Virus record (IMG/VR): IMGVR_UViG_3300007734_000685
Span: 1 to 40,752 of that record
Strand: one strand, 5' to 3'
From: a virus
Length of the DNA: 40,752 nucleotides
Shown: positions 1-9,894 of the stretch, piece after piece
How the letters are laid out: every line of letters starts with the position of its first letter
How positions within the stretch are numbered: the first letter of the stretch is position 1
Translations under genes and position numbers: made by a program
Notes under the pieces: model-generated
The model's input: only the letters and a program-made list of their open reading frames with translations
What the model was told of the DNA's origin: nothing
Databases searched by the model: none

Positions 1-126
1 AGGGTCACAGTTCCATCAAAGAATGAGCCAGACCCTGCATTGGAAAAAATTAAAGCCGATGACAAAAAAGCAGTTCCTCCATCTTTAGAAGTTTTAGCAA
101 AAATGGCTCAATTAAGGAGTAAATAA
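1..126 (+). CDS. Partial copy: C-terminus of DUF1376 replication-type protein
   Basis: Reading frame 1 encodes the last 41 residues of the protein whose full gene is at 39999-40751, ending in TAA at 124-126. It is not a separate gene; it is the other copy of the terminal overlap. The stop overlaps the methyltransferase start as TAATG, which suggests translational coupling of the two genes in the circular genome. Confidence 0.9.
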   Translation, partial: RVTVPSKNEPDPALEKIKADDKKAVPPSLEVLAKMAQLRSK

Positions 127-127
127 T
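1..127. repeat. Terminal redundancy, left copy
   Basis: These 127 bases are identical to 40626-40752. An overlap of exactly 127 at both ends of a contig is what a k=127 assembler leaves when a circular or circularly permuted genome closes. It should be read as an assembly overlap rather than proven packaging ends. The genuine gene order is therefore circular: the gene ending at 40751 is followed directly by the methyltransferase gene at 126. Confidence 0.93.
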
Positions 128-1214
128 GAACAAGATTGAATTTGGTGATTGCCGTGAAATTATGCGTAAATGGGCATCACAAGGCGTTATGGCTCAAACT
201 TGCATAACAAGCCCACCCTATTACGGGTTGCGAGACTACGGGACTGCCAGGTGGGAAGGTGGGGATGTTAATTGCGATCATGTTGAAAGCGAAAATAAAC
301 ATGGAGGACAACGAGCCGACAGAAACCAAGAAGGATACAAAAAACAATACAAAGATTTATGCAAAAAATGTGGTTCTGTCAGAGAGGATAAACAGATTGG
401 ACTTGAGGAAACCCCAGAGGAATATATTAAGGCAATGGTTGAGGTATTCCGATGTGTTTGGGATGTATTGGAAGACGATGGCACTCTATGGGTAAACATT
501 GGTGATAGTTATTGCAATACAAATGGTTTTGCTAGAGCCAGCCCTGAATATCAACGTGAAGGCAGAAACAATATGCCAGCCAATGACAGAAAGTTGGACA
601 AGTTACACGATACAGGTTTAAAAACAAAAGACTTAATTGGAATACCTTGGATGCTTGCATTTGCTTTAAGGGCAGATGGTTGGTATTTGCGTCAGGACAT
701 TATTTGGAGTAAACCAAACCCAATGCCAGAGTCAGTGCAAGATCGTTGCACTAAATCGCATGAGTATATATTTTTGTTGAGCAAATCGTCAAAATACTAC
801 TACGATAACGAGTCAATAAAAGAAAAGGCTATTCACGCTGGAGAGCAAAGAAGTTTTAACTCTCCCAAAAAAGCAATGAGAAATGTAGATGGCAATGTGT
901 CAACTGGAAATGAACACCCTGATGCTTTGCCAGTAGAAGTATCTGAACTGAAAAACAAAAGAAGTGTTTGGACAGTAAATCCAAAACCCTACTCTGGGTC
1001 GCATTTTGCCGTGTTTCCCACAGAACTGATTGAACCCTGCATCCTTGCTGGCGCACCACTTGGAGGAATAGTTTTAGACCCTTTTATGGGGTCAGGAACT
1101 ACTGCCCAAGTAGCCCAAGACCTTGGTAGGCAATATATTGGGTGCGAGTTAAATCCTGAATATGGAAAACTTCAAAAGAAACGTACAGCTCAAACATCAT
1201 TGGATTTTGCATGA
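126..1214 (+). CDS. Site-specific DNA methyltransferase (beta-class)
   Basis: A 362-residue amino-methyltransferase that would transfer a methyl group from S-adenosylmethionine to adenine N6 or cytosine N4 in a specific DNA site. The catalytic motif SPPY is near the N-terminus (residues 29-32). The AdoMet-binding motif DPFMGSGTT is near the C-terminus (318-326), followed by the acidic motif II region (GCELNPEY, 340-347). Catalytic-before-binding order is the beta class. SPPY is commoner in N4-cytosine enzymes, but specificity cannot be read from the sequence. Between these motifs lie C50-x-H52 and C79-x2-C82, a probable zinc-binding insert. No partner restriction enzyme is nearby, so it is likely an orphan enzyme protecting phage DNA or marking it for regulation. 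The start is coupled (TAATG) to the upstream replication gene. Confidence 0.9.
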   Translation: MNKIEFGDCREIMRKWASQGVMAQTCITSPPYYGLRDYGTARWEGGDVNCDHVESENKHGGQRADRNQEGYKKQYKDLCKKCGSVREDKQIGLEETPEEYIKAMVEVFRCVWDVLEDDGTLWVNIGDSYCNTNGFARASPEYQREGRNNMPANDRKLDKLHDTGLKTKDLIGIPWMLAFALRADGWYLRQDIIWSKPNPMPESVQDRCTKSHEYIFLLSKSSKYYYDNESIKEKAIHAGEQRSFNSPKKAMRNVDGNVSTGNEHPDALPVEVSELKNKRSVWTVNPKPYSGSHFAVFPTELIEPCILAGAPLGGIVLDPFMGSGTTAQVAQDLGRQYIGCELNPEYGKLQKKRTAQTSLDFA

Positions 1215-1318
1215 GCCATGCAGACGCAATGAAACTACTAGATAGGATTAAGGATGGAATTCCTTACCCTCTACACCTGATAAACAAAGCACTGGAGTTA
1301 ACTGGTGACTTGGAGTAG
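1211..1318 (+). CDS. Hypothetical microprotein, 35 aa
   Basis: A short ORF beginning MSHADAMKLLDRIKDG whose ATG overlaps the methyltransferase stop as ATGA and whose end overlaps the next gene. I do not recognise a family. The main support is tight coupling on both sides and the lack of any other explanation for the interval. It is predicted helical at the N-terminus. Confidence 0.5.
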   Translation: MSHADAMKLLDRIKDGIPYPLHLINKALELTGDLE

Positions 1319-1517
1319 AAGAAACATTCAAGGCGCAAGTGACAGGGTTCAACTAGAGCAGTCCGAGGCTAGAGAACTCTATCGTAATTGGGAATGGAAT
1401 AAGAATCGTGATCTCATCAGAGCAAGACTTGAGAGAGCAGAGCGAATCTATGGAACTGGTGCGAGAGATCGCATAAGAGCTTTTATGCAACAAATGCAAA
1501 ATGGGACACTTCTATGA
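1305..1517 (+). CDS. Hypothetical basic helical protein, 70 aa
   Basis: Unrecognised small protein with a GTG start, rich in arginine, glutamate and aromatic residues (for example ELYRNWEWNKNRDLIRARLE), predicted as nearly continuous amphipathic helix. It sits between the methyltransferase and the RusA-type resolvase. It overlaps the preceding microgene by 14 nt, and its TGA overlaps the ATG of the next gene as ATGA, so it probably belongs to one coupled operon. A nucleic-acid-binding role is possible from the charge but is only inference. Confidence 0.6.
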   Translation: MTWSRRNIQGASDRVQLEQSEARELYRNWEWNKNRDLIRARLERAERIYGTGARDRIRAFMQQMQNGTLL

Positions 1518-1942
1518 CAATGATGATAACTTTTAAAGTAGACGCTGACCCTGTTGGTAAACAAAGGGCTAGATACGCTAGGCGGGGAAACTTTGTCCAG
1601 ACTTACACCCCTGACAAAACTAGAACCTACGAATCTTTAATCAAAGAAGCCGCAACAGAAGCAATGGGAAGTTCCGAACCATTGGAAACCCCTGTAAATC
1701 TGTATCTCTACATTCGAGCGCCAATCCCCAAGTCTTACTCAAAAAAGAAAGTAGCAGACTGTTTAAACGGCCTTGAGAAACCAATTAAGAAGCCTGACGC
1801 ATCCAATGTGCTGAAAAGCGTAGAAGATGCGATGAATGGAGTTGTTTACAAAGATGACACACAGATTGTGAACATTCATGTAACGAAGGTTTACTCAAGT
1901 CAATCAGGAATAGATGTGTGCGTAAAAGAATGCTTAGACTAA
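1514..1942 (+). CDS. rusA: RusA-like Holliday junction resolvase
   Basis: A 142-residue endonuclease of the RusA family, which cuts four-way junctions made during recombination or replication. The N-terminal VDADPVGKQRAR and the core KKPDASNVLKSVEDAMNG...YKDDTQI follow the family pattern. Likely metal-binding acids are D95, D105 and D114/D115. In the usual PDxDN core the second aspartate is serine here (Ser97), which is odd because that position contributes to metal binding in E. coli RusA. The enzyme may use a neighbouring acid or be weak. With the Sak3-type annealing protein and SSB-like protein of the opposite operon it completes a recombination set. It is coupled by ATGA to the upstream gene. 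Its stop codon lies inside a putative operator (1940-1956). Confidence 0.9.
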   Translation: MTMMITFKVDADPVGKQRARYARRGNFVQTYTPDKTRTYESLIKEAATEAMGSSEPLETPVNLYLYIRAPIPKSYSKKKVADCLNGLEKPIKKPDASNVLKSVEDAMNGVVYKDDTQIVNIHVTKVYSSQSGIDVCVKECLD

Positions 1943-1956
1943 GGGTTTATCCCTAT
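1940..1956. promoter_or_regulatory. Putative operator TAAGGG-N5-CCCTAT (site 1)
   Basis: An inverted repeat with half-sites TAAGGG and CCCTAT separated by five bases, between rusA and the next gene and overlapping the rusA stop. The same pattern occurs near 7971, 8638, 37422 and 39102, always outside or at the edge of genes. A dimeric regulator of the phage or host is the simplest reading. Confidence 0.45.
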
Positions 1957-2007
1957 TTAAAATATTCCATAAAAGGAATAACATTTAATTTTTAACAGGA
2001 GAAAGTA

Positions 2008-2244
2008 ATGGACACAATTAATTTCCAAGCCAGAACAGGCAATGGCAGCGAAGTAGTACAAGTAATCATGTCTTATGACGAAGACATTGATGGAATCTTT
2101 GACAAGAACATTGAATCAGTCTTATTTGAAGACAAAGAAGTTGTTGGCTTGCTTACTGGCGAACAATATTTAGATCTAGAAAAACAAGGTTGCGAAGCCA
2201 TTAATGAGAAAAAGATCTGGCAATTGGAGAATTACGAGCCATGA
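2008..2244 (+). CDS. Hypothetical acidic protein, 78 aa
   Basis: Unrecognised small acidic protein starting MDTINFQARTGNGSEVVQ. It has a strong ribosome-binding site, AGGAGAAAGTA, immediately before ATG; the same cassette precedes several genes of the leftward operon at 37-39 kb. It is the first gene after a 65-base gap containing operator site 1, so it may open a new transcription or translation unit. The pattern of short strands and charged turns suggests a small folded domain. Its stop overlaps the next ATG as ATGA. Confidence 0.75.
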   Translation: MDTINFQARTGNGSEVVQVIMSYDEDIDGIFDKNIESVLFEDKEVVGLLTGEQYLDLEKQGCEAINEKKIWQLENYEP

Positions 2245-2411
2245 ACACACCTATGCCTCAAGATTACATCCAACGACACCTTGGACCATGGCGGTCTTTA
2301 GAGGAGATCATTCGGTGGGTAGAAGCCTATCACGGCATCTATGACACCAAGGGTTGTCCACCTTGCAACAACCACTGCAACCAAGGCAGAGACTGCCCTG
2401 CTAGAAAATGA
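2241..2411 (+). CDS. Hypothetical four-cysteine protein, 56 aa
   Basis: A small ORF overlapping both neighbours by ATGA. It starts MNTPMPQDYIQRHLGPWRSL and ends with C39-x2-C42-x3-C46-x5-C52, a likely zinc knuckle or small zinc ribbon. The family is not recognised. Coupling on both sides and the conserved-looking cysteine cluster support it as a real gene. It may bind nucleic acid or another protein through the zinc site. Confidence 0.65.
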   Translation: MNTPMPQDYIQRHLGPWRSLEEIIRWVEAYHGIYDTKGCPPCNNHCNQGRDCPARK

Positions 2412-2866
2412 GAAAACAAACCAAACGCAAGATTTGGAATCTAATTGATCCAATCATGCACGGCATAGTGGGGGCAGCCATCACCCCTCGTCAAACATTG
2501 GACAAGCTTAGAGTGCTTGAGTACTCCGCATTGGATTCAATTACTAAGGGAACGGGAACTGTCCAAGATTGGCGCATTTTGGTTGATGTCCTGAATCTTT
2601 CCGAAGTTATGGCCAGAGCGGGTGTAGGTCCCGAAGTTATACCTGTATGCGAGAAAGCTCAAGATGCCCTACATAAAGCGGCCATGCGTTACCAAGCCAC
2701 TATGAGAATGGGGTTTGATGGTATTGGCATTCAGGCCATCAGGGAACTAATTGAGTACGCAGACCTTCAGCAGGGCAGTATTTGCCGATCAGAATTTGAG
2801 AAATATGTGAAGAAAACCCGTGACCACATCAGGTCAAACAATCATAAAGTGGTTGAAATCGTATGA
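2408..2866 (+). CDS. Hypothetical helical phage protein, 152 aa
   Basis: A mostly alpha-helical, soluble protein without a recognised catalytic motif. It begins with a basic segment (MRKQTKRKIWNLIDP) and continues with helices rich in Ala, Leu and Arg. Proteins of this look lie in the early regions of many phages of Burkholderiales, but I cannot assign a function. It is coupled by ATGA to the four-cysteine protein and overlaps the next gene by four bases. Confidence 0.75.
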   Translation: MRKQTKRKIWNLIDPIMHGIVGAAITPRQTLDKLRVLEYSALDSITKGTGTVQDWRILVDVLNLSEVMARAGVGPEVIPVCEKAQDALHKAAMRYQATMRMGFDGIGIQAIRELIEYADLQQGSICRSEFEKYVKKTRDHIRSNNHKVVEIV

Positions 2867-3132
2867 GCTTTACAGATGGCATATCACCGGAAGTGCTAGA
2901 AAAAGCATGGGAAATAATGGAAAAAAGGCGCAAAGAAGCCTTGTCCCAGAAGCTTGGTAGACCTGTTTTAGATTGGGGCGGTAAGCGTAAAGGTGCTGGC
3001 AGACCTAGATTCCTGACCTACAACACAACAGTAAAAATAGAACTCAATGCAGTCCAAAAGAAGATTTTGGCTGAAATGGGTGATGGCAACATCAATAAAG
3101 GCATAGAAAAATTAATCAACGAGGCAATGTAA
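2863..3132 (+). CDS. Putative ribbon-helix-helix DNA-binding protein
   Basis: An 89-residue protein with an N-terminal helix (about 8-30), a basic GGKRKGAGRP segment (about 39-48) typical of flexible DNA-binding linkers, and a C-terminal region (about 54-88). The C-terminal order is a strand (TVKIEL), a helix (NAVQKKILAEMG) and a second helix (NINKGIEKLINEAM). That order matches the ribbon-helix-helix fold of Arc/CopG-type regulators, which bind palindromic operators as dimers. This makes it a candidate binder of one of the palindromes listed here, though which one is not shown. The fold assignment is by pattern only. Confidence 0.6.
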   Translation: MSFTDGISPEVLEKAWEIMEKRRKEALSQKLGRPVLDWGGKRKGAGRPRFLTYNTTVKIELNAVQKKILAEMGDGNINKGIEKLINEAM

Positions 3133-3449
3133 TGGAAAATCACGCAAACAAGGCAGTTACTTTTATTCTAGAAAACGCACCTAAATATGCCCTAGCAAAG
3201 GCTACTAGGGTGCAATTAGAGGAATATCGCAAGTCCAAAAAGGCCATTCTCATGTTAAACGAGGAAGGCACACTAGGCGCAAAAGAAATGTATGCCTATG
3301 CTCATGCAGACTATATAGCCCTACTGTTTGAGATCAAAGAAGCAATAGCCCAAGAAGAGGAACTTAGATGGAAACTTGAGGCAGCCAAGCTACGGATCGA
3401 TGTTTGGAAAACTGAAGAGTACACAAAACGAGTGGAAATGAAATTATGA
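3132..3449 (+). CDS. Hypothetical coiled-coil protein, 105 aa
   Basis: A highly charged helical protein. Residues about 20-100 form long helices with heptad-like spacing (AQEEELRWKLEAAKLRIDVWK), so a coiled coil is likely. It starts within the TAATG junction with the preceding gene, and its stop overlaps the next start. Proteins like this occur beside recombination genes in several phages, but nothing in the sequence shows a specific role. Confidence 0.7.
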   Translation: MENHANKAVTFILENAPKYALAKATRVQLEEYRKSKKAILMLNEEGTLGAKEMYAYAHADYIALLFEIKEAIAQEEELRWKLEAAKLRIDVWKTEEYTKRVEMKL

Positions 3450-3730
3450 ACAGAGAAGACATTATTCGCATGGCACGAGAGGCTGGGTTTGTTGACTACG
3501 AACTTGACGATGGCACTACAAACTCATTTGACAAACGATATGAACGCTTTGCCGCCCTTGTCGCTTCTGCCGAGCGTGAGCGCATTTGTGCAGAACAACT
3601 TGAACTGCCAGAGCCAAGGCTAACGGGTAAGTTTTCAATCACCGCAGGGAAGTTTAAATGCACGGGTTGCACGGGAACTTGGACAGACCGTGAAGATGCT
3701 AAACACCATTCATGTAAGGATTACCAATGA
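3446..3730 (+). CDS. Hypothetical zinc-finger-like protein, 94 aa
   Basis: The N-terminal half is helical and charged ([15 protein letters not shown]...[17 protein letters not shown]). The C-terminal third contains [10 protein letters not shown] and a following HHSC, a C-x2-C ... H/C arrangement that would bind one zinc ion. The N-terminal pattern is common in small early proteins of Burkholderiales phages. Coupled by ATGA on both sides. Function unknown; nucleic-acid or protein binding through the zinc site is the reasonable guess. Confidence 0.7.
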
Positions 3731-4074
3731 CTAAAGAAGAACTACTTGACCACCTAGCATTAGAGGTGTTGAGGGTTTCCCCGCAATCAGCCCGTGATGC
3801 GTATCGTGTTGCAGAAGATATGTTAGAACGCAGACAGGAAATTTTGAATAAATGGGCAATGGCTGAGGCTGTTGTTTTTGATGGAATAGAAAAACTTGAA
3901 TTAACTGTTAGATCTGAAAATTGTTTAAAAGCGGAAGAAATTTATACCATTACACAGTTAATTGGATGCACCGAAGAACGCTTGCTTAAAACTCCAAACT
4001 TAGGACGCAAAAGCATAAAAGAAATTACTAATCGTTTAAATGAACGTGGTTTAAAGTTGCGAGGTCAAGCATGA
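3727..4074 (+). CDS. RNA polymerase alpha-CTD-like protein
   Basis: 115 residues. Residues 1-50 are a helical extension of unknown fold. Residues about 54-112 match the C-terminal domain of bacterial RNA polymerase alpha, the helix-hairpin-helix domain that binds UP-element DNA and activators. Compared from memory with E. coli alpha, the DNA-contacting residues R265, N268, G296, K298, S299 and E302 correspond to R62, N65, G93, K95, S96 and E99, all kept within [15 protein letters not shown] and [15 protein letters not shown]. The activator-facing positions differ: D259 is K56, V287 is E84, E288 is R85. The alpha N-terminal assembly domain is absent, so it cannot build polymerase. It may occupy UP elements, recruit or block host polymerase, or tether its N-terminal extension to DNA. 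Its neighbours are small coupled early genes. Confidence 0.85.
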
Positions 4075-4166
4075 CATGGCCATTCCCACCATTCCCAAAC
4101 CCTAAAGATAAAGGCAACAAAGTGCCTAAATTCAATCCTGAAAACTACGAAGAAAGTCCACTATGA
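4071..4166 (+). CDS. Proline-rich microprotein, 31 aa
   Basis: A 31-codon ORF ([17 protein letters not shown]...) overlapping the alpha-CTD-like gene and the next gene by ATGA at both ends. It is proline-rich and probably unstructured. Evidence is limited to position and coupling. It could be a coupling leader for the downstream gene. Confidence 0.45.
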
Positions 4167-4387
4167 CTAAAGACGAAGCATTGAAGTTAGCGTTGGAGGC
4201 GTTGGAAGCCGCTTATGCAAGGCTTGTCACAAAATGTGAGCAAAACCTTGTGACTTACAACGGAGTTGACGTTGACACGTTAACGCTTTCCCAAGAAGCC
4301 ATCACCGCCATCAAGCAAGTGCAAGCAAACGATGCCCTAGAAAAGAAGGCAGAAAACGCAAGAGAGTTGGGGTTGGACTATGACTAA
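4163..4387 (+). CDS. Hypothetical helical protein, 74 aa
   Basis: Starts [20 protein letters not shown], an opening widespread among small phage proteins of Burkholderiales and shared with the gene at 4538 (MTKDELKLALKRAK), so the two may be distant paralogues. Predicted almost wholly helical. No catalytic motif. Coupled by ATGA to the preceding microgene and overlapping the lipoprotein gene by eight bases. Confidence 0.7.
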   Translation: MTKDEALKLALEALEAAYARLVTKCEQNLVTYNGVDVDTLTLSQEAITAIKQVQANDALEKKAENARELGLDYD

Positions 4388-4541
4388 ACTATTTTTAATT
4401 TGCACTTTGTTTTTAACTGGTTGTAGCCCATTTGATGAATATGAATGTATTGATGGCGTGATTTATACCCGCATGGGCAATGTACTAAGGCAAAGCGGTA
4501 CATGGGCTCATACTAAATGTGTATCAAAAGGACAAGCATGA
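4380..4541 (+). CDS. Small lipoprotein, 53 aa
   Basis: MTKLFLICTLFLTGCSPF is a short signal peptide with a lipobox (LTGC, lipidated Cys15 predicted). A mature peptide of about 39 residues with two more cysteines (C23, C47) follows, and these may form a disulfide in the periplasm. Position +2 after the lipidated cysteine is serine, which favours outer-membrane sorting. Small phage lipoproteins often mediate superinfection exclusion (T5 Llp, for example) or modify the envelope; which applies here is inference. The gene overlaps the preceding one by eight bases and the next as ATGA. Confidence 0.7.
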   Translation: MTKLFLICTLFLTGCSPFDEYECIDGVIYTRMGNVLRQSGTWAHTKCVSKGQA

Positions 4542-5014
4542 CTAAAGACGAATTGAAGTTGGCACTTAAGCGCGCAAAACGCGATGAACGTCATTTATCA
4601 AACGCTGAGACACGATATTGGTGTAACCAATACAAATTATTGGCGACACAAGCCATTGAAGCCTTGGCACAGCCAGAGCAACGCAACTTGTCCGAACAAG
4701 AGCATGATGTTTTGATGAATGCAATTAAAGCGTCATCGACGGTTGTCTCTAAAGGGTTCTTGGCACAGCCAGAGCAAGAACCTGTGGGTAGGTTTGCCAA
4801 ATTCACCGATGGTATTTGGCGAGAAGTAACTGATGGGTCTGCGGGAGTTCCTCTCTACACCACCCCACCACAGCGCACATGGGTTGGGCTGACGGATGAT
4901 GACAAAGTGTTAATAAAACATGATGCAAATTTTAACCAGTTTATGACAGCAGGTGAATATGCTGACAGAGTGCAACAGTTAACTGAAGCCAGATTAAAGG
5001 ACTTAAACACATGA
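4538..5014 (+). CDS. Hypothetical 'LAQPEQ...YTTPPQR' phage protein
   Basis: A 158-residue protein from the ATG at 4538, chosen because it overlaps the previous stop as ATGA and has AGGA six bases upstream; an ATG 21 bases earlier lies inside the lipoprotein gene. The N-terminal half is helical. The motif LAQPEQ occurs twice (about residues 44 and 77), followed by EPVGRFAKFTDGIW...GVPLYTTPPQR. That segment is a common, often repeated module in phages of Burkholderiales and Pseudomonas whose function is unknown to me. The C-terminus is again helical. Confidence 0.75.
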   Translation: MTKDELKLALKRAKRDERHLSNAETRYWCNQYKLLATQAIEALAQPEQRNLSEQEHDVLMNAIKASSTVVSKGFLAQPEQEPVGRFAKFTDGIWREVTDGSAGVPLYTTPPQRTWVGLTDDDKVLIKHDANFNQFMTAGEYADRVQQLTEARLKDLNT

Positions 5015-5415
5015 GCGGCTGGCGCAAACGTGGCTTTGGAAAGCATGAATATTACAGAGACAAAAAGCTACTAGAACTTGCAGAAGGTGAGCCTTGTCTT
5101 TTGCAGGTGGCCAAAAATTGTTTGGGGGGGGATGGGTCCACAACAGTGGCTTGTCATTCCAACCTACTAATCCATGGCAAAGGTCGCTCAATTAAGGCAG
5201 ATGACCATCATTCGGTATGGGGGTGCTACCACTGCCACACTTGGCTAGACTCATCCCAAACTGATTACGACACCAAAAATCTAGCATTCCAAGAGGCGTA
5301 TAAAAGACAACTTCACGCATGGATGGATTTGGCAGATAATATTACAATCAGACCTTGGCGCAGAGAAGCCGCTAGGCGTGTTTTAACCCACTTGGGAGTC
5401 CCACATGGACAATGA
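5011..5415 (+). CDS. YbcO/DUF1364-like putative nuclease
   Basis: A 134-residue protein of the DUF1364 (YbcO) family, usually found in the nin-type regions of lambdoid phages and considered an HNH-like nuclease. Cysteines C29, C37, C48, C72 and C75 with HDH-type neighbours (ACHSN, DDHHSVWGCYHCHTW) form the expected zinc/metal framework. Length is normal for the family. A run of eight G bases at 5124-5131 lies within the frame; the frame continues intact across it, but this is a spot where sequencing or polymerase slippage could occur. Coupled by ATGA upstream; its end overlaps the next gene by 11 bases. Confidence 0.8.
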   Translation: MSGWRKRGFGKHEYYRDKKLLELAEGEPCLLQVAKNCLGGDGSTTVACHSNLLIHGKGRSIKADDHHSVWGCYHCHTWLDSSQTDYDTKNLAFQEAYKRQLHAWMDLADNITIRPWRREAARRVLTHLGVPHGQ

Positions 5416-5764
5416 AATTGGTGATCTAGTTCTGACCTTGTTGCATTCTGCGACCAACACTCACATCCTACATTGGCAATCCAAGTCCTATGCAGAACAC
5501 AAAGCCCTTGGCGCATTTTACGAAGAGCTACCAGGCAAGGTTGATGACCTCGTTGAAGCCATTCAAGGCAAGTTTGATTCAACCCTAGAATTCCCTGCCA
5601 CCTACCATACCCCTGCCGATACTGGCAAACGTGAACTGCATGAACTGTCAGAATATTTTGAGGAAAAGCGCAAAGTGCTACCCCAAGATTCTGAGATACA
5701 AAACATTGCAGATGAAATTCAGCAGCTAATAGATTCAACCCTTTATCTCCTACGATTTCCATGA
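5405..5764 (+). CDS. Ferritin/Dps-like helical protein (DUF5856-like)
   Basis: A 119-residue all-helical protein. The segment ILHWQSKSYAEHKALGAFYE and the following VDDLVEAIQG resemble the DUF5856 family and, more distantly, the ferroxidase region of Dps. H32, D47 and E51 have the same mutual spacing (15 and 4) as the second His, Asp and Glu of the Dps ferroxidase site. The first His (H23 of the HW pair) is nine residues before H32 instead of twelve. A role in metal binding or DNA protection is therefore only a possibility. It is the last gene of the rightward early cluster and faces a convergent operon across a 400-base gap. Confidence 0.6.
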   Translation: MDNEIGDLVLTLLHSATNTHILHWQSKSYAEHKALGAFYEELPGKVDDLVEAIQGKFDSTLEFPATYHTPADTGKRELHELSEYFEEKRKVLPQDSEIQNIADEIQQLIDSTLYLLRFP

Positions 5765-5839
5765 TGAATGGCCTCTAAAAAAATAGGGGTCTAAAATTTT
5801 TGAGGGGGGGGTCCTTTTATATGGGGGGACTAACCCAAA

Positions 5840-5901
5840 AACTGTGTTTTTATCCAGTATTACTGTGTTTTCATACAGTATTACAGTGTTTTTATACAGT
5901 G
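5840..5901. repeat. Three tandem 21-bp repeats, each a LexA/SOS-box-like palindrome
   Basis: Units begin at 5841, 5862 and 5883, an exact period of 21. The middle one contains TACTGT-N8-ACAGTA (5861-5880), the full palindromic ends of the E. coli LexA consensus. The first has AACTGT-N8-CCAGTA and the third TACAGT-N8-ACAGTG. The spacer is GTTTT(T/C)AT in all. No promoter-facing gene adjoins the array, so it may be an operator cluster, an iteron array or a repressor-titration site. Period and box matches are read directly; the binding protein is inferred. Confidence 0.7.
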
Positions 5902-6134
5902 GTTTTTTACCAACATTCAAGAAAAACATCAAAAACCCCTTGTAAGTCGTTGATTTTAAATAACGCGCACGCTATTGATTAAAAGGCCGCGCACAATCAC
6001 CCCTTATCAGTTGCCCGATAAAGTAAACCGCGCACGCTATCGCCTGACTCGATAGTCAATCAATAGTCAACGGCAAATCCTGACTCTTTTAAGCCATAAA
6101 AAAGCAAACCCTAGGCAAACCCCTTAATAGATAC

Positions 6135-6158
6135 AAAAAAAGCCCCTAAGGGCCTTTT
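6135..6158 (-). terminator. Rho-independent terminator of the clamp operon
   Basis: On the minus strand GCCC and GGGC arms with a TTAG loop are followed by a run of seven T, ten bases beyond the stop codon of the sliding-clamp gene. On the plus strand the hairpin is followed by TTTTC, so it could also act weakly on rightward transcripts. Confidence 0.65.
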
Positions 6159-6168
6159 CTATCGCTTT

Positions 6169-6792
6169 TTAAGCGGTTATCGGTGTTTCTATCGGTTTTG
6201 TAGTTGGCAAATAGCACCAGGCGGGCACTTTAGCTATTCCCTCACGCGTTGGCATAATCACACCGATAAAAGAGTCATCTAATGAAAAACTCACAATGCC
6301 GCTAGAGTTACCGCGCTGCAAAACAGCGGGAATTTGACGTTTTCCAAACAGTTCCTCTGATACGTCAACAAATCGCACCAACAAATCAGGGTTGTAAGTG
6401 CTTTGCTTTTCATCCTCTGACTTGAAAACTAGGGGAATAACGCGATCAGTATCGGGAAACCTTGCATCATGCGCGGAGAATGTCATTGTAGAGTCGCCTT
6501 GTATGCACTCTACTGAAAAGCCGTTGACATCAAAGTGCAAAGAATCCGCGCCTTGTTTTTTAGTTCCTTTGAGCTTCAAAAGTGCATCAGTTGGCAAAAT
6601 AACGCTTTGCTTTTCATCTGATCTGATGCCATCGATAAGCAAACGGCCTAAAACGTGCCCATCCGTTGCTTCGATGTAAGTGCCCCGATTGTCGCGCACT
6701 ACATTAATACCTTGCAAATAGTACCGCAAATCCTTTTTAGCTGCTAAGTGCAACATTGCACGAATTGATTTGCGTTGAATTGAGAATTTCAT
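6169..6792 (-). CDS. DNA polymerase III beta sliding-clamp-like protein
   Basis: 207 residues from the ATG at 6792; an in-frame ATG 15 bases upstream is part of an AGATGAAAGTAAC sequence that looks like a ribosome-binding region. The N-terminal segment (SIRAMLHLAAKKDLRYYLQG), ATDGH (about 42-46) and the C-terminal VIMPTR (about 178-183, compare the MPMR end of bacterial beta clamps) identify the DnaN family. Bacterial clamps have three domains and about 366 residues, so this is a shortened form. No polymerase is encoded, so it would act as an alternative or competing clamp for host polymerase, or tether other phage enzymes to DNA. Last gene of the leftward 7853-6169 operon, followed by a terminator. 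Confidence 0.82.
   Translation of the reverse strand: MKFSIQRKSIRAMLHLAAKKDLRYYLQGINVVRDNRGTYIEATDGHVLGRLLIDGIRSDEKQSVILPTDALLKLKGTKKQGADSLHFDVNGFSVECIQGDSTMTFSAHDARFPDTDRVIPLVFKSEDEKQSTYNPDLLVRFVDVSEELFGKRQIPAVLQRGNSSGIVSFSLDDSFIGVIMPTREGIAKVPAWCYLPTTKPIETPITA
6748..6761. promoter_or_regulatory. Palindrome GTGCAA-CA-TTGCAC inside clamp gene
   Basis: A perfect inverted repeat (six-base arms, CA centre) within the first codons of the clamp gene. It shares the core TGCAACATTGCA with the palindrome at 6814-6829 in the leader, 66 bases apart. The pair could be an operator with two sites, or two alternative RNA hairpins around the start codon. Confidence 0.35.
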
Positions 6793-6813
6793 AATAGTTA
6801 CTTTCATCTAAAT

Positions 6814-6829
6814 GATGCAACATTGCATC
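6814..6829. promoter_or_regulatory. Palindrome GATGCAA-CA-TTGCATC in clamp leader
   Basis: A perfect inverted repeat with seven-base arms about 22 bases upstream of the clamp start codon. It has the same TGCAACATTGCA core as 6748-6761. It lies between the clamp and the preceding gene, where it could act as an operator, or as an mRNA hairpin controlling translation of the clamp. Confidence 0.4.
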
Positions 6830-6865
6830 GAATAAGGCACTTTTGATGCCTTACCCGCTGGAATG

Positions 6866-7054
6866 TCAAATAGCTAAAAAAGCCGATTGTTTTTGCGCTT
6901 CGCTTGGATTATTCAAGGCCCACCATTCGAGGCGATCATAATTTTCATTGTGTTTGCAAATGTCATAAAGCATTACATTTGCATGAGGCGATCTAAATTT
7001 GATAATTTGCCCCATAAATTGTGGTTTACATGGTGCATTTGTGCCGTTTTGCAT
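6866..7054 (-). CDS. Hypothetical protein, 62 aa
   Basis: Unrecognised small protein starting MQNGTNAPCKPQFMGQIIKF. It has a good ribosome-binding site (AAGGGG five bases before ATG), which separates it from spurious ORFs. Charged and aromatic C-terminal half (YDRLEWWALNNPSEAQKQ) predicted helical. It lies ten bases downstream of the membrane microprotein and upstream of the clamp gene in the same leftward operon. Confidence 0.6.
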   Translation of the reverse strand: MQNGTNAPCKPQFMGQIIKFRSPHANVMLYDICKHNENYDRLEWWALNNPSEAQKQSAFLAI

Positions 7055-7063
7055 AGTTGCCCC

Positions 7064-7159
7064 TTATTTCACTAAAACGTCAAAATAGTGCAAAGCCCCT
7101 ATGCAAAGCATGAGGCCGATTGCAATAGAAGTCAGATAGTCTAAAAAAGAGTTTTTCAT
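7064..7159 (-). CDS. Single-span membrane microprotein, 31 aa
   Basis: MKNSFLDYLTSIAIGLMLCI and eleven more residues: one hydrophobic segment at about 10-27 flanked by charged residues, so an inner-membrane peptide is predicted. AAAAGG precedes the ATG at a suitable distance. Family not recognised. It sits in the leftward clamp operon among small genes of unknown role. Confidence 0.55.
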   Translation of the reverse strand: MKNSFLDYLTSIAIGLMLCIGALHYFDVLVK

Positions 7160-7170
7160 TGTGTGACCTT

Positions 7171-7350
7171 TTAAGAGTTTTTTGCAAGTAAGTTAAATGA
7201 TTTCAACCAGGCGCGGGCCCCTTGATAACTATCGGCCATCATTTTATCGGCCAACTCTCCGCTCTTATATAGCTTTACAACGTAATACCCGTTGTAAGCA
7301 AGTCGCTCAAAGGTAGTGTAATTGCCGTTTTTTTGTTCAGTTACTTTCAT
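7171..7350 (-). CDS. Hypothetical protein, 59 aa
   Basis: Begins MKVTEQKNGNYTTFERLAYN. The start has one of the strongest ribosome-binding sites in the window, GGAGGT about six bases upstream. It overlaps the end of the preceding gene by 14 bases, as expected for coupled translation. The sequence has a strand-rich middle (NGYYVVKLYKSGELADK) and a helical end. No known family. Confidence 0.65.
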   Translation of the reverse strand: MKVTEQKNGNYTTFERLAYNGYYVVKLYKSGELADKMMADSYQGARAWLKSFNLLAKNS

Positions 7351-7516
7351 GCTCTACCTCCGTTATTGATTCCAAATCCCATCCGCCCCAATTATCGTCA
7401 TAATCACTTGTTTGGAGCTCCAACCAACCGGCATCCTCCGCCTTTTCTAAGCTATCGGCTTCAACTTCAAAAGTTACATAAGAAACCCGCTTTAATTCAA
7501 CTTGATACGTTTTCAT
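7337..7516 (-). CDS. Hypothetical acidic protein, 59 aa
   Basis: Start chosen at 7516 (MKTYQVELKRVSYVTFEVEA) because AAGGGG lies seven bases upstream; longer versions would run into the preceding gene. The pattern, a beta hairpin followed by SLEKAEDAG and a WGGWDLESI strand, resembles small phage proteins with an alternating strand-helix-strand fold. I cannot name the function. It is acidic and sits second in the leftward operon. Confidence 0.68.
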   Translation of the reverse strand: MKTYQVELKRVSYVTFEVEADSLEKAEDAGWLELQTSDYDDNWGGWDLESITEVEHESN

Positions 7517-7526
7517 TTTGAGCCCC

Positions 7527-7853
7527 TTAGAATTGACGATAAAGCACGCCATAAGACGTTTCTTTGATGAGCACTCCCTCATCCGCTAAGTAGTCAAGCA
7601 CTTGCGCCTTAATTTCATCCTCATTTTCATTCTGATCTACTTCGATTGAATAGGCTGCAATGACGTTTTCAATAGTGTCCTCTGAAAAGTCGCAACAAAT
7701 CCCGATAACGTCAAATTCTGACTCTATGCCCGTTGAATCGTCTATTTCCTCAAAGTAGTCAAATAGGATGGAAAGTGCCTCATTTGTGAAGTTATCAGGC
7801 CGGAGCTCTAAAAAGGCACGTTGGAAGTCAAAAAGATTGATAGTGGTTTTCAT
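7527..7853 (-). CDS. Hypothetical highly acidic protein, 108 aa
   Basis: First gene of the leftward operon. The ATG at 7853 (MKTTINLFDFQRAFLELR) is preferred; an in-frame ATG 15 bases upstream belongs to the same AGATGAAAGTAAC leader sequence seen before the clamp gene. The protein is dominated by Asp and Glu with few basic residues, mostly helical. Extreme acidity recalls DNA-mimic proteins such as Ocr, but there is no sequence match that I can see, so anti-restriction is only a hypothesis. Expression probably starts from the promoter at 8004-8032. Confidence 0.7.
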   Translation of the reverse strand: MKTTINLFDFQRAFLELRPDNFTNEALSILFDYFEEIDDSTGIESEFDVIGICCDFSEDTIENVIAAYSIEVDQNENEDEIKAQVLDYLADEGVLIKETSYGVLYRQF

Positions 7854-7970
7854 GGTAGTTACTTTCATCTAAGTTAACGGGCAAAACCGCTTTACCCGTG
7901 CATCTAATATAACGATGCAAAACCAACAAAAACATCAGTACAAACCCTAGGTTTACCAACTTAAAACCCT

Positions 7971-7986
7971 TAAGGGAAAACCCTAA
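7971..7986. promoter_or_regulatory. Putative operator TAAGGG-N4-CCCTAA (site 2)
   Basis: Half-sites TAAGGG and CCCTAA with a four-base AAAA gap, 18 bases downstream of the -10 element of the leftward promoter. That is where a repressor would block transcription of the clamp operon. A variant of the five-site motif family. Confidence 0.45.
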
Positions 7987-8003
7987 CCATACGTTAGTAG
8001 TCA

Positions 8004-8032
8004 ATTACATTTGATAAATACGTGAAAATCAA
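8004..8032 (-). promoter_or_regulatory. Leftward sigma70-type promoter for clamp operon
   Basis: On the minus strand TTGATT (8032-8027), a 17-base spacer and TGTAAT (8009-8004) match the -35 and -10 consensus at four and five of six positions. Transcription would start near 7997 and read the 7853-6169 operon after a leader of about 145 bases. Confidence 0.55.
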
Positions 8033-8190
8033 GTGCATTTAATCTTATCCTTTTATATATCTAATCGGATAAACATTACATCTATAAAAGTCATAAGCTA
8101 TTGATAGCAGCCAGATAGCATGAAGCTAGCATTTGCACGGCTTCGCGCCTGATCTGATGCCTGATTGACTCTTTTTATAGCCCTTGGAAT

Positions 8191-8334
8191 GAGTGGGCCC
8201 CTATCTTTCCCCTATTTCAACCCCCCCTATCTATGCAATAAACGCATAACCTTTGCACCCCCCTAGCACTCTCAGCCGTAGAGTGGTGGGGGGGGGTAGG
8301 ACTGGAAAGGGTTCCAAAAGGGGGGGGCCCACTC
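8191..8334. repeat. Nested inverted repeats with C- and G-tracts
   Basis: Outer arms GAGTGGGCCCC (8191-8201) and GGGGCCCACTC (8324-8334) are perfect complements. Inside, CCCCCC-TAG-CACTCT (8258-8272) and AGAGTG-GTG-GGGGGG (8280-8294) form a hairpin with a seven-base loop. The left half is C-rich and the right half G-rich, with several runs of three or more G that could form a quadruplex. Such a structure could be a replication origin, a packaging signal or a transcription block. Confidence 0.6.
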
Positions 8335-8637
8335 ACCCATCCCCGAAATTTCTCAAAAACTTTTTCCTGTTGCAAAGACGCAACACACCTTGATGACTAG
8401 TAGGGAGAGGGATTGTGTGATGGTTAACTGTGGACGAACTATGGCATCCACTGTTTTTACTTAAAAAGAAAGCTTTCAAGCAGTAGCACCTTGTTTATCT
8501 AACTTAACCCTGATGGGCTCTACCTGTATGTTCCCGTTCATTGCTTACTAGAGAGACTGATAGATTCAGTACGTTTATCTGGGTTGGTAAGCTACCTGCC
8601 TTCCCAAGGGCTGGATGATGGCCCCGTATTCATTCTA

Positions 8638-8654
8638 TTAGGGTTTACCCCTAT
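8638..8654. promoter_or_regulatory. Putative operator TTAGGG-N5-CCCTAT (site 3)
   Basis: Half-sites TTAGGG and CCCTAT with spacer TTTAC, about 55 bases upstream of the -35 region of the rightward late promoter. It is a strict match to the motif shared with sites at 1940 and 37422. Confidence 0.45.
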
Positions 8655-8669
8655 GTAAAGGGGATAGCC

Positions 8670-8678
8670 TGTGGATAA
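8670..8678 (-). promoter_or_regulatory. DnaA-box match
   Basis: TGTGGATAA is the complement of the strong DnaA box TTATCCACA. It is followed within 15 bases by an AT-rich stretch (8689-8720). A single box can occur by chance in a genome this size, so it supports an origin only together with the inverted repeats nearby. Confidence 0.35.
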
Positions 8679-8706
8679 CTCTGTATAAGAATCCTATATA
8701 AAAATT

Positions 8707-8736
8707 TTTACTCAAAACTTTTTGGGTAGCTATAAT
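8707..8736 (+). promoter_or_regulatory. Rightward late promoter
   Basis: A perfect -10 TATAAT (8731-8736) with TTTACT (8707-8712) as a four-of-six -35 at 18 bases, in an AT-rich context. Transcription would start near 8743, exactly at the first base of the structured leader, and read the packaging and head genes. Confidence 0.55.
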
Positions 8737-8742
8737 TGTTTG

Positions 8743-8834
8743 GTTGGGACGTTAAGCCAGCATTCAAGGATGTCGATGCAAGATTTTTTCTGGCTTTCCA
8801 TCTTGCTTTGCCAAAGACCAAATTGAGTCCCAAC
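8743..8834 (+). ncRNA. Structured 5' leader with predicted pseudoknot
   Basis: Three perfect pairings lie between the late promoter and the first late gene. P1 pairs GTTGGGAC (8743-8750) with GTCCCAAC (8827-8834). P2 pairs AAGCCAG (8754-8760) with CTGGCTT (8790-8796). P3 pairs GCAAGAT (8778-8784) with ATCTTGC (8800-8806). P2 and P3 interleave, which is a pseudoknot, and P1 closes the whole element. It ends 17 bases before the start codon at 8852. It does not look like a tRNA and I recognise no riboswitch or ribozyme class. A cis-acting regulator, an RNA processing signal or a packaged small RNA are possible. Confidence 0.6.
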
Positions 8835-8851
8835 ACTTTTATAGGAATAGC

Positions 8852-9394
8852 ATGGAATGGACATTGGCACACCCACTGCATGATGTGGACGATATTGTGA
8901 ACATGGCAGACTCAGTCTTTGGGCATGAAGCTGATGGCATACTGACTAGGGACAAAGCCGTGTTCCGCAAGAATGTCACTGTTGCCACTACAGTTCAGTT
9001 GTTTGACAGAAGCAAAGAATTCATTGCGGTCTGCCGTGGACCCAAAGTAATTGACACTTTCCTAGGCCAGGCAGAAGTTAATGATGCGCTGCTAGGGTAC
9101 TGTTGGTTTGATCGTGGCGGGTATACCACCTATGCCAATGATGAAATATCCAATGCCAAGTTCCACCATGTTGACTTAGAATTAAGCCCTCGCTTGCGTG
9201 TGCGCTTGATAAATGAGATGATTGACCAACATATATTGTGGGCAGACAGATGGTATATACCAGTGGTATGTTCCACTTCTATTCGTGCCGAACATGATGG
9301 GTTTATGAAGATTCACAAGAAACGTGGGTTTACTGTACACGGCTCATATGCTTGGCTTAGAACTGAAAAGGGTATGGAATGTTTGAAGAAATAA
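8852..9394 (+). CDS. GNAT-like protein upstream of terminase
   Basis: A 180-residue protein. Its C-terminal half (LELSPRLRVRLINEMIDQHI ... STSIRAEHDGFMKIHKKRGF) follows the helix-strand-helix-strand order of GNAT acetyltransferases, with GF near the end, but no clear acetyl-CoA loop (Q/RxxGxG/A) is evident. Proteins of similar appearance occur near terminase or internal-virion genes of podoviruses (T7 gp13 has a comparable pattern). It could modify a host protein or be a virion component. First late gene; ribosome-binding site TAGGAAT. It overlaps the next gene by 16 bases. Confidence 0.5.
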   Translation: MEWTLAHPLHDVDDIVNMADSVFGHEADGILTRDKAVFRKNVTVATTVQLFDRSKEFIAVCRGPKVIDTFLGQAEVNDALLGYCWFDRGGYTTYANDEISNAKFHHVDLELSPRLRVRLINEMIDQHILWADRWYIPVVCSTSIRAEHDGFMKIHKKRGFTVHGSYAWLRTEKGMECLKK

Positions 9395-9894
9395 GACCCG
9401 AAGGCTCAACTGTTAATTCTGAAGAACTTAAGAAGAAAGCCCGTGAGTATGCCAAAGCCAAACGTGCCCAAAAAAAAGCCATGAAACTAGCCACAGGCCA
9501 GATTGAACCTAAACAAGCCATTGAGACTGTACCTGTCGTGGACGAGTTTGACATGACCGCTTTTGTTCCTAGATCCCAAAAGGCAGCAGGTCGCCCCAAA
9601 TCCATAGTCAACAAGGTTACCGAGTACGGGGCTTTGTTTAATAAACTGAACGATGAGCGCACCTCAAAAGGTCTGCCACCCCTTAAAACAGCCATGGAAG
9701 TCTTGATTGATGCCATGCAGTCTGATGAGCTAGATATCAAAGACAAAGCCAAGATTGCTGATAAACTGGCCCCGTTTGAGTCTAGCCGTGCCCCGATCAT
9801 TTCCGTAGAACACATCCAAAATGTAACTAGGGAAGATGAGGGTGACGCAGAAGATGCGTTAAATGAGTTTCTTGATTCTCTAAGAAAGGTGTAA
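9379..9894 (+). CDS. Putative terminase small subunit
   Basis: 171 residues. The N-terminal 35 are strongly basic and helical (KKKAREYAKAKRAQKKAMK), then comes a GRPKS segment and a helical core (NKVTEYGALFNKLNDERTSK ... DKAKIADKLAPFESSRAPII), with an acidic C-terminus. The DKLAPFE...RAPII pattern is seen in small terminase subunits, which bind the phage DNA and hand it to the large subunit. Distance to the large subunit (1.7 kb) with small virion-type genes between is unusual but not unique. Assignment rests on pattern and position. Confidence 0.55.
   Translation: MFEEIRPEGSTVNSEELKKKAREYAKAKRAQKKAMKLATGQIEPKQAIETVPVVDEFDMTAFVPRSQKAAGRPKSIVNKVTEYGALFNKLNDERTSKGLPPLKTAMEVLIDAMQSDELDIKDKAKIADKLAPFESSRAPIISVEHIQNVTREDEGDAEDALNEFLDSLRKV

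Follow-up and report, generated by a model that had tools for sequence, protein, structure and literature searches.

We find that a 115-residue protein (P0001), encoded in the window (the whole 40,752-nucleotide stretch of IMG/VR virus record IMGVR_UViG_3300007734_000685 analysed here), carries at its C-terminal end a true alpha C-terminal domain (alpha-CTD) of RNA polymerase rather than a generic helix-hairpin-helix (HhH), joined to an N-terminal helical hairpin, and that this fusion protein is common to at least 100 related environmental phage contigs. Phages that attack the alpha-CTD and alpha-CTD-named phage proteins in databases were already known; new here are the definition of the family by its two domains, the assignment of the hairpin, the apparent single capture, the pattern of residues across the family and the linkage to a recombination operon. 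Domain identity, conservation, selection and common ancestry within phages are established at the level of sequence, and the function discussed below is our reading of these data.

The source of the window is a freshwater-type phage. Its genes include those for terminase, portal, major head protein and endolysin, together with a RusA resolvase, a Sak-type annealing protein, MazG and a primosomal protein. The best named relative, MW202484 (deposited as Podoviridae sp.), shows a 76% match in the portal/head region, and host contamination was ruled out by the terminase, portal and major head protein along with this match. In 369 gammaproteobacterial genomes, searched through the portal for hints of a host or prophage, there was a single weak match and nothing usable, and PADLOC gave no match for the window protein. 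The fusion gene begins with an overlap on the stop codon of the small open reading frame before it (Table 1), which places the gene within a tightly packed early-type gene run and suggests, from the arrangement of the two frames, that both may be co-translated.

Table 1 Coordinates of the hairpin/alpha-CTD fusion gene, its domains and its contact residues in the window.
Feature	Coordinates	Strand	Evidence or remark
Hairpin/alpha-CTD fusion gene (P0001), 115 aa	3727..4074	+	ORF; viral homologues; dN/dS ~0.12 in close clade
Small upstream ORF	3446..3730	+	Stop overlaps fusion gene start (ATGA)
N-terminal helical hairpin, residues 1-52 (helices 3-17, 22-52)	3727..3882	+	HMM, hhalign, AlphaFold
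RNA polymerase alpha C-terminal domain, residues 52-106 (Pfam), fold on to ~residue 112	3880..4044	+	PF03118, PDB, Foldseek
R62 = E. coli alpha R265, main DNA contact	3910..3912	+	Invariant, 47/47 members
N65 = N268	3919..3921	+	Kept here; H/R in 40/47 members; N in 39/39 rpoA controls
G93, K95, S96, E99 = G296, K298, S299, E302	4003..4023	+	Alignment to family
K56 = D259 (sigma-facing determinant)	3892..3894	+	Charge reversed
R85 = E288 (part of CRP-type determinant)	3979..3981	+	Charge reversed

The initial annotation had read residues 54-112 as a bacterial alpha-CTD, and profile, structural and fold comparisons agree. Residues 52-106 score 71.6 bits against Pfam RNA_pol_A_CTD (PF03118), for which the cut-off is 23.8 (E=4.5e-20, and 1.2e-21 in the genome-wide search), and a phmmer search against the PDB returned RNA polymerase alpha subunits only (best E=1e-15). 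The generic family HHH_5 reached 13.6 bits, below its cut-off of 27, contradicting an origin as a generic HhH repeat from another family. An AlphaFold model built on a 47-member alignment has a pLDDT of 94 and shows helices 3-17 and 22-52 followed by the alpha-CTD helices, and its Foldseek matches are RNA polymerase alpha-CTDs such as 1lb2, 3k4g and 1z3e, including CAP- and Spx-bound forms. The NCBIfam rpoA equivalog scores 72.8 bits against a cut-off of 227.8 and covers only positions 229-296 of 298; the alpha-NTD assembly domain is absent, so P0001 is a stand-alone, phage-encoded alpha-CTD, as first described, and would be unable to join RNA polymerase as alpha does.

P0001 aligns with E. 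coli alpha without gaps (35 of 62 positions identical, 56%), and the residue equivalences first proposed, including Lys, Glu (E84) and Arg at D259, V287 and E288, are therefore correct. The statement that all main DNA contacts are kept holds for P0001, which carries R265, N268, G296, K298, S299 and E302, but not for its family. We counted residues in 47 family members, 34-95% identical to the window protein, and in 39 distinct gammaproteobacterial rpoA CTDs as controls. Across the family, R265, G296, K298, P293 and N294 are invariant, while position 268 is H in 13, R in 27 and N in 7; positions 265, 268, 296, 298, 299 and 302 show no variation in the controls (39/39). The close subfamily keeps S299 and E302 throughout, and the distant subfamily has lost both with one exception each, having G at 299 in 27 of 28 members and F/L and others at 302. 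Judged from these alignments, only the core DNA-contact set is kept family-wide without exception. Because most members have H or R in place of N268 and nearly all of the distant subfamily lacks S299/E302, canonical UP-element recognition may be altered there. The mean alpha-CTD charge is +2.5 in the distant subfamily versus 0 in E. coli.

The protein-contact surface follows a different pattern. In the rpoA controls, position 259 is D/E in 39/39 and position 288 in 38/39, and the aligned sequences mark D259K and E288R of the window protein as real charge reversals; V287E is uninformative because position 287 varies freely in rpoA. An altered activator surface, as initially proposed, is thus borne out at 259 and 288 but not at 287, nor at T285, E286 and E261 (activator/sigma determinants), which are kept. 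In the window's subfamily, the D259/E288 changes suggest that the usual contacts to sigma and CRP have been lost. As a family trait, however, selective loss of the CRP-type surface did not stand: in the distant subfamily 259 is mostly acidic, 288 is nearly always acidic and 287 is R in 26 of 28, which points to subfamily drift rather than a family-wide decoy surface.

The N-terminal part, initially described as a 50-residue helical extension, does consist of two predicted helices within residues 3-52, but it is a known common phage hairpin instead of an unknown effector. An HMM of family residues 1 to ~50 detected stand-alone small proteins in the same phage genomes (E 1.9e-8 to 1e-3), of the form 'GMTLRDYFAAKAMQGL...AYxxADAMLKAREA' ('DYFAAKAMQ...AYxxADAMLKAR' type), and hhalign of the family N-terminal alignment against them gave 97% probability (E 1.1e-10). 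These proteins match phrog_2201, phrog_37111 and phrog_20565 and, more weakly, phrog_30599 ('transcriptional regulator'); a direct PHROG scan of the family members gave weak phrog_2201/20565 matches (E 0.035-0.048) and none for the window protein itself. The stand-alone PHROG proteins are thus homologous to the P0001 N-terminal domain, but they lack the alpha-CTD. Named phage records with a stand-alone form number 74 and include phages of Pseudomonas, Burkholderia and enterics; those listed are hypothetical or unannotated. At two loci (L029 and L030) such a gene directly follows the fusion gene. The hairpin profile found nothing significant in the PDB; its role is perhaps dimerisation.

A first scan detected the family in 32 viral contigs, and a profile scan gave 120 IMG/VR matches, of which 80 loci were kept, down to 31-38% identity. 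At least 77 genes within the fetched viral loci encode both domains, so the two-domain form does recur in other phages. In the close clade, the median dN/dS is ~0.12 (hairpin 0.17, alpha-CTD 0.09), indicating from codon comparisons that both domains are under purifying selection. One contig (L017) carries two diverged hairpin/alpha-CTD genes, at 2577-2960 and 5001-5384.

We built a tree from 102 rows of alpha-CTD segments, whose inner branching order is weak because the alignment has only 67 columns. The hairpin-fused phage proteins together with L052, which has a different N-terminus and an alpha-CTD 68% identical, form one clade with support 99/99 beside gammaproteobacterial rpoA. This single clade, including L052, suggests one rpoA capture followed by N-terminal domain shuffling. 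A pattern scan of 84,980 bacterial and archaeal genomes, by a method that reaches close relatives only, found no relative, and two scans of genome contigs found no two-domain relative, the second giving only bacterial rpoA-like alpha-CTDs. Among 143 gammaproteobacterial genomes there was no clear two-domain form, the alpha-CTD lying in rpoA-like frames of ~325-430 residues with few exceptions; genome G035 has an extra short alpha-CTD ORF, the flanks of which we inspected. Several database candidates were set aside: the flanks of the 'phage' record MT836419 are a bacterial ribosomal-protein operon with a full rpoA, and the 'fecal phage', Salmonella, Listeria and similar 'phage' records with an alpha-CTD, several annotated as rpoA, were not counted as phage homologues.

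P0001 shares with the rpoA alpha-CTD its fold and R265/G296/K298, plus N268/S299/E302 in the window member, and differs from it in lacking the alpha-NTD, in D259K and E288R, and in carrying the phage hairpin. T4 Alt/ModA ADP-ribosylate alpha R265 (PMC2988021), and in phiKMV-like phages Rac leads to alpha-CTD cleavage (PMC7552054); these phage strategies likewise bear on the alpha-CTD, but they target the host subunit, whereas with P0001 the phage carries its own copy of the domain. BREX PglW also has an alpha-CTD-like domain outside rpoA, with other partner domains. Phage proteins named after the alpha-CTD are already in public databases including UniProt, apparently uncharacterised, one being ORF40 of Erythrobacter phage vB_EliS-L02, named in a genome paper (PMC9127768); they contain the same domain as P0001 but are recorded as annotations only. 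All 128 residues of A0A6J5MNY7 align with P0001 (38%), and on this basis that protein very likely belongs to the family. A literature search covering papers outside subscription found no functional study of a phage-borne stand-alone alpha-CTD, nor of its partner domain or operon context.

Other phage proteins use the alpha-CTD with different partners. At L057:4563-5264 and L085:4515-5201 it lies behind an N-terminal HTH, which in L057 is sigma-70 region 4 (Pfam E 1.1e-8), so that this type differs from P0001 in its partner domain while likewise placing the alpha-CTD outside rpoA. The two group separately from the window's family in the tree (support 96/87), and by domain content may possibly be one-chain sigma4/alpha-CTD regulators. 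We also observed a phage alpha-CTD with an apparent coiled coil (L070:4386-5180), one with an unassigned N-terminus (L052:4797-5189), a protein annotated as pyrophosphatase whose alpha-CTD is N-terminal (L036:4995-5861, Ruegeria phage vB_RpoS-V16 gp23), and an alpha-CTD protein with an unassigned N-terminus annotated as RNA polymerase subunit alpha (L037:1950-2591, Bacillus phage Goe8 gp5).

Our preferred reading, which we hold at roughly even chances, is that P0001 is an early DNA-binding protein affecting host-polymerase transcription via AT-rich or UP-like sites, with the hairpin as an oligomerising or partner module. A captured host alpha-CTD, fused to a phage-specific hairpin, would bind promoters of the phage or the host at AT-rich, UP-like DNA; the hairpin, which probably oligomerises or binds a partner, would give avidity or supply that partner; and the net effect on host-polymerase transcription would arise from UP-element occupancy or from recruiting or displacing alpha-CTD partners. 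A role in transcription is favoured by the PF03118 match and fold, the family size, viral restriction, R265/G296/K298 invariance and the dN/dS of 0.12, by the 99/99 clade near gammaproteobacterial rpoA and the early-type gene clusters, and by the fusion in other phages (L057) of an alpha-CTD to the sigma-70 region 4 HTH, a clearly transcription-related partner. It is weakened by the replacement of N268 with H/R in most members, the loss of S299/E302 from nearly all of the distant subfamily, the location of ~40% of members in a recombination operon, and the promoter-like sites in window 1-9500, which are below chance (10 observed, 18 expected). A more specific version, in which a detached, phage-owned alpha-CTD made multivalent by the hairpin occupies UP-like DNA and thereby excludes host alpha-CTD from strong promoters or marks phage promoters, we propose only tentatively.

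The gene neighbourhood makes a role in recombination the main rival to transcription control, because ~40% of members (31/77; 13/43 after 95% dereplication) lie directly between an ERF/Sak ssDNA-annealing protein and a YqaJ exonuclease, usually with SSB next and genes often overlapping. Neighbour labels (annealing protein, YqaJ, RuvC, SSB) come from sequence reading and homology to scanned window proteins, those for YqaJ, RuvC and SSB being without a profile check of their own. Here the alpha-CTD would be re-used as a dsDNA-binding HhH module acting in recombination or replication with the annealing protein, exonuclease and SSB rather than with RNA polymerase, which we regard as somewhat unlikely, at perhaps one chance in four. 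It would fit the occurrence of this arrangement in both subfamilies, and the more basic character of the distant subfamily (+2.5 vs 0), which lacks S299/E302. However, the remaining 60% of members, that of the window among them, lie outside that operon, clustering with RusA or RuvC, an HNH nuclease and a phrog_858/DUF5856 gene; early operons hold regulators too; and the close alpha-CTD is nearly host-like (56% to E. coli), beyond what bare DNA binding needs. Both kinds of neighbourhood are early-type, which is compatible with a transcription role and not proof of it. At window 2208-5011 and most related loci, we also noted many paralogous small ORFs with a common N-terminal start, several of them flanking the fusion gene (111 in 52 loci, forming one loose cluster).

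Alternatively, the alpha-CTD copy could act as a protein decoy that titrates or redirects host transcription factors, sigma or a phage regulator, with no need for DNA. Activators are known to dock on the alpha-CTD, the window protein keeps T285, E286 and E261, and the attacks on the host domain by both T4 and phiKMV-like phages (PMC2988021, PMC7552054) mark it as a worthwhile target; yet the invariant positions are the DNA contacts R265/G296/K298 and the protein contacts at 259, 261, 287 and 288 vary, opposite to the prediction, making a decoy improbable. A generic HhH repeat or a decaying, functionless host rpoA fragment, at which the weak HHH_5 similarity (13.6 bits) might hint, is hardly credible given the 71.6 bits for PF03118, a dN/dS of 0.12 between diverged phages, over 75 viral homologues of the same two-domain form and the single supported clade.

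Modification and cleavage of the host alpha-CTD are known phage strategies, and a widespread, conserved clade with its own copy would represent a different control of host polymerase. If the multivalent, UP-occupying reading is true, the promoter-recognition domain of the polymerase has been captured as a takeover factor by a large, apparently unstudied environmental phage clade; if the recombination role is true, that domain has found a surprising re-use in recombination. The variation within the family (N268H/R, S299G, E302F/L, D259K, E288R) is a natural mutant series for DNA versus protein contacts of the alpha-CTD, and its members are small, confidently folded and amenable to in vitro tests.

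Elsewhere in the window, three tandem 21-bp copies of ACTGTGTTTTNATACAGTATT lie at 5841-5903, between two convergent genes that end at 5764 and 6169. The middle copy is a perfect LexA/SOS-box-like dyad, CTGT-N8-ACAG, and the other two have one mismatch each; single matches to this pattern occur at chance level, and it is the tandem phasing that stands out, so that the repeats could be a candidate repressor-binding or titration site. The protein encoded at 6169-6807 (-) matches the central domain of the DNA polymerase III sliding clamp (PF02767 E 6.5e-7, phrog_947); the RusA-like resolvase label on its top-scoring PHROG is probably wrong. The window has more runs of 7-9 G than expected (11 vs 2.8; 0/100 shuffles as high), including those at 5124-5131, 5804-5811, 8221-8227, 8288-8296 and 8320-8327, and most map to the ORF-poor stretch 7870-8850 or its vicinity; that stretch also contains a 19-nt inverted repeat (8190-8208/8317-8335).
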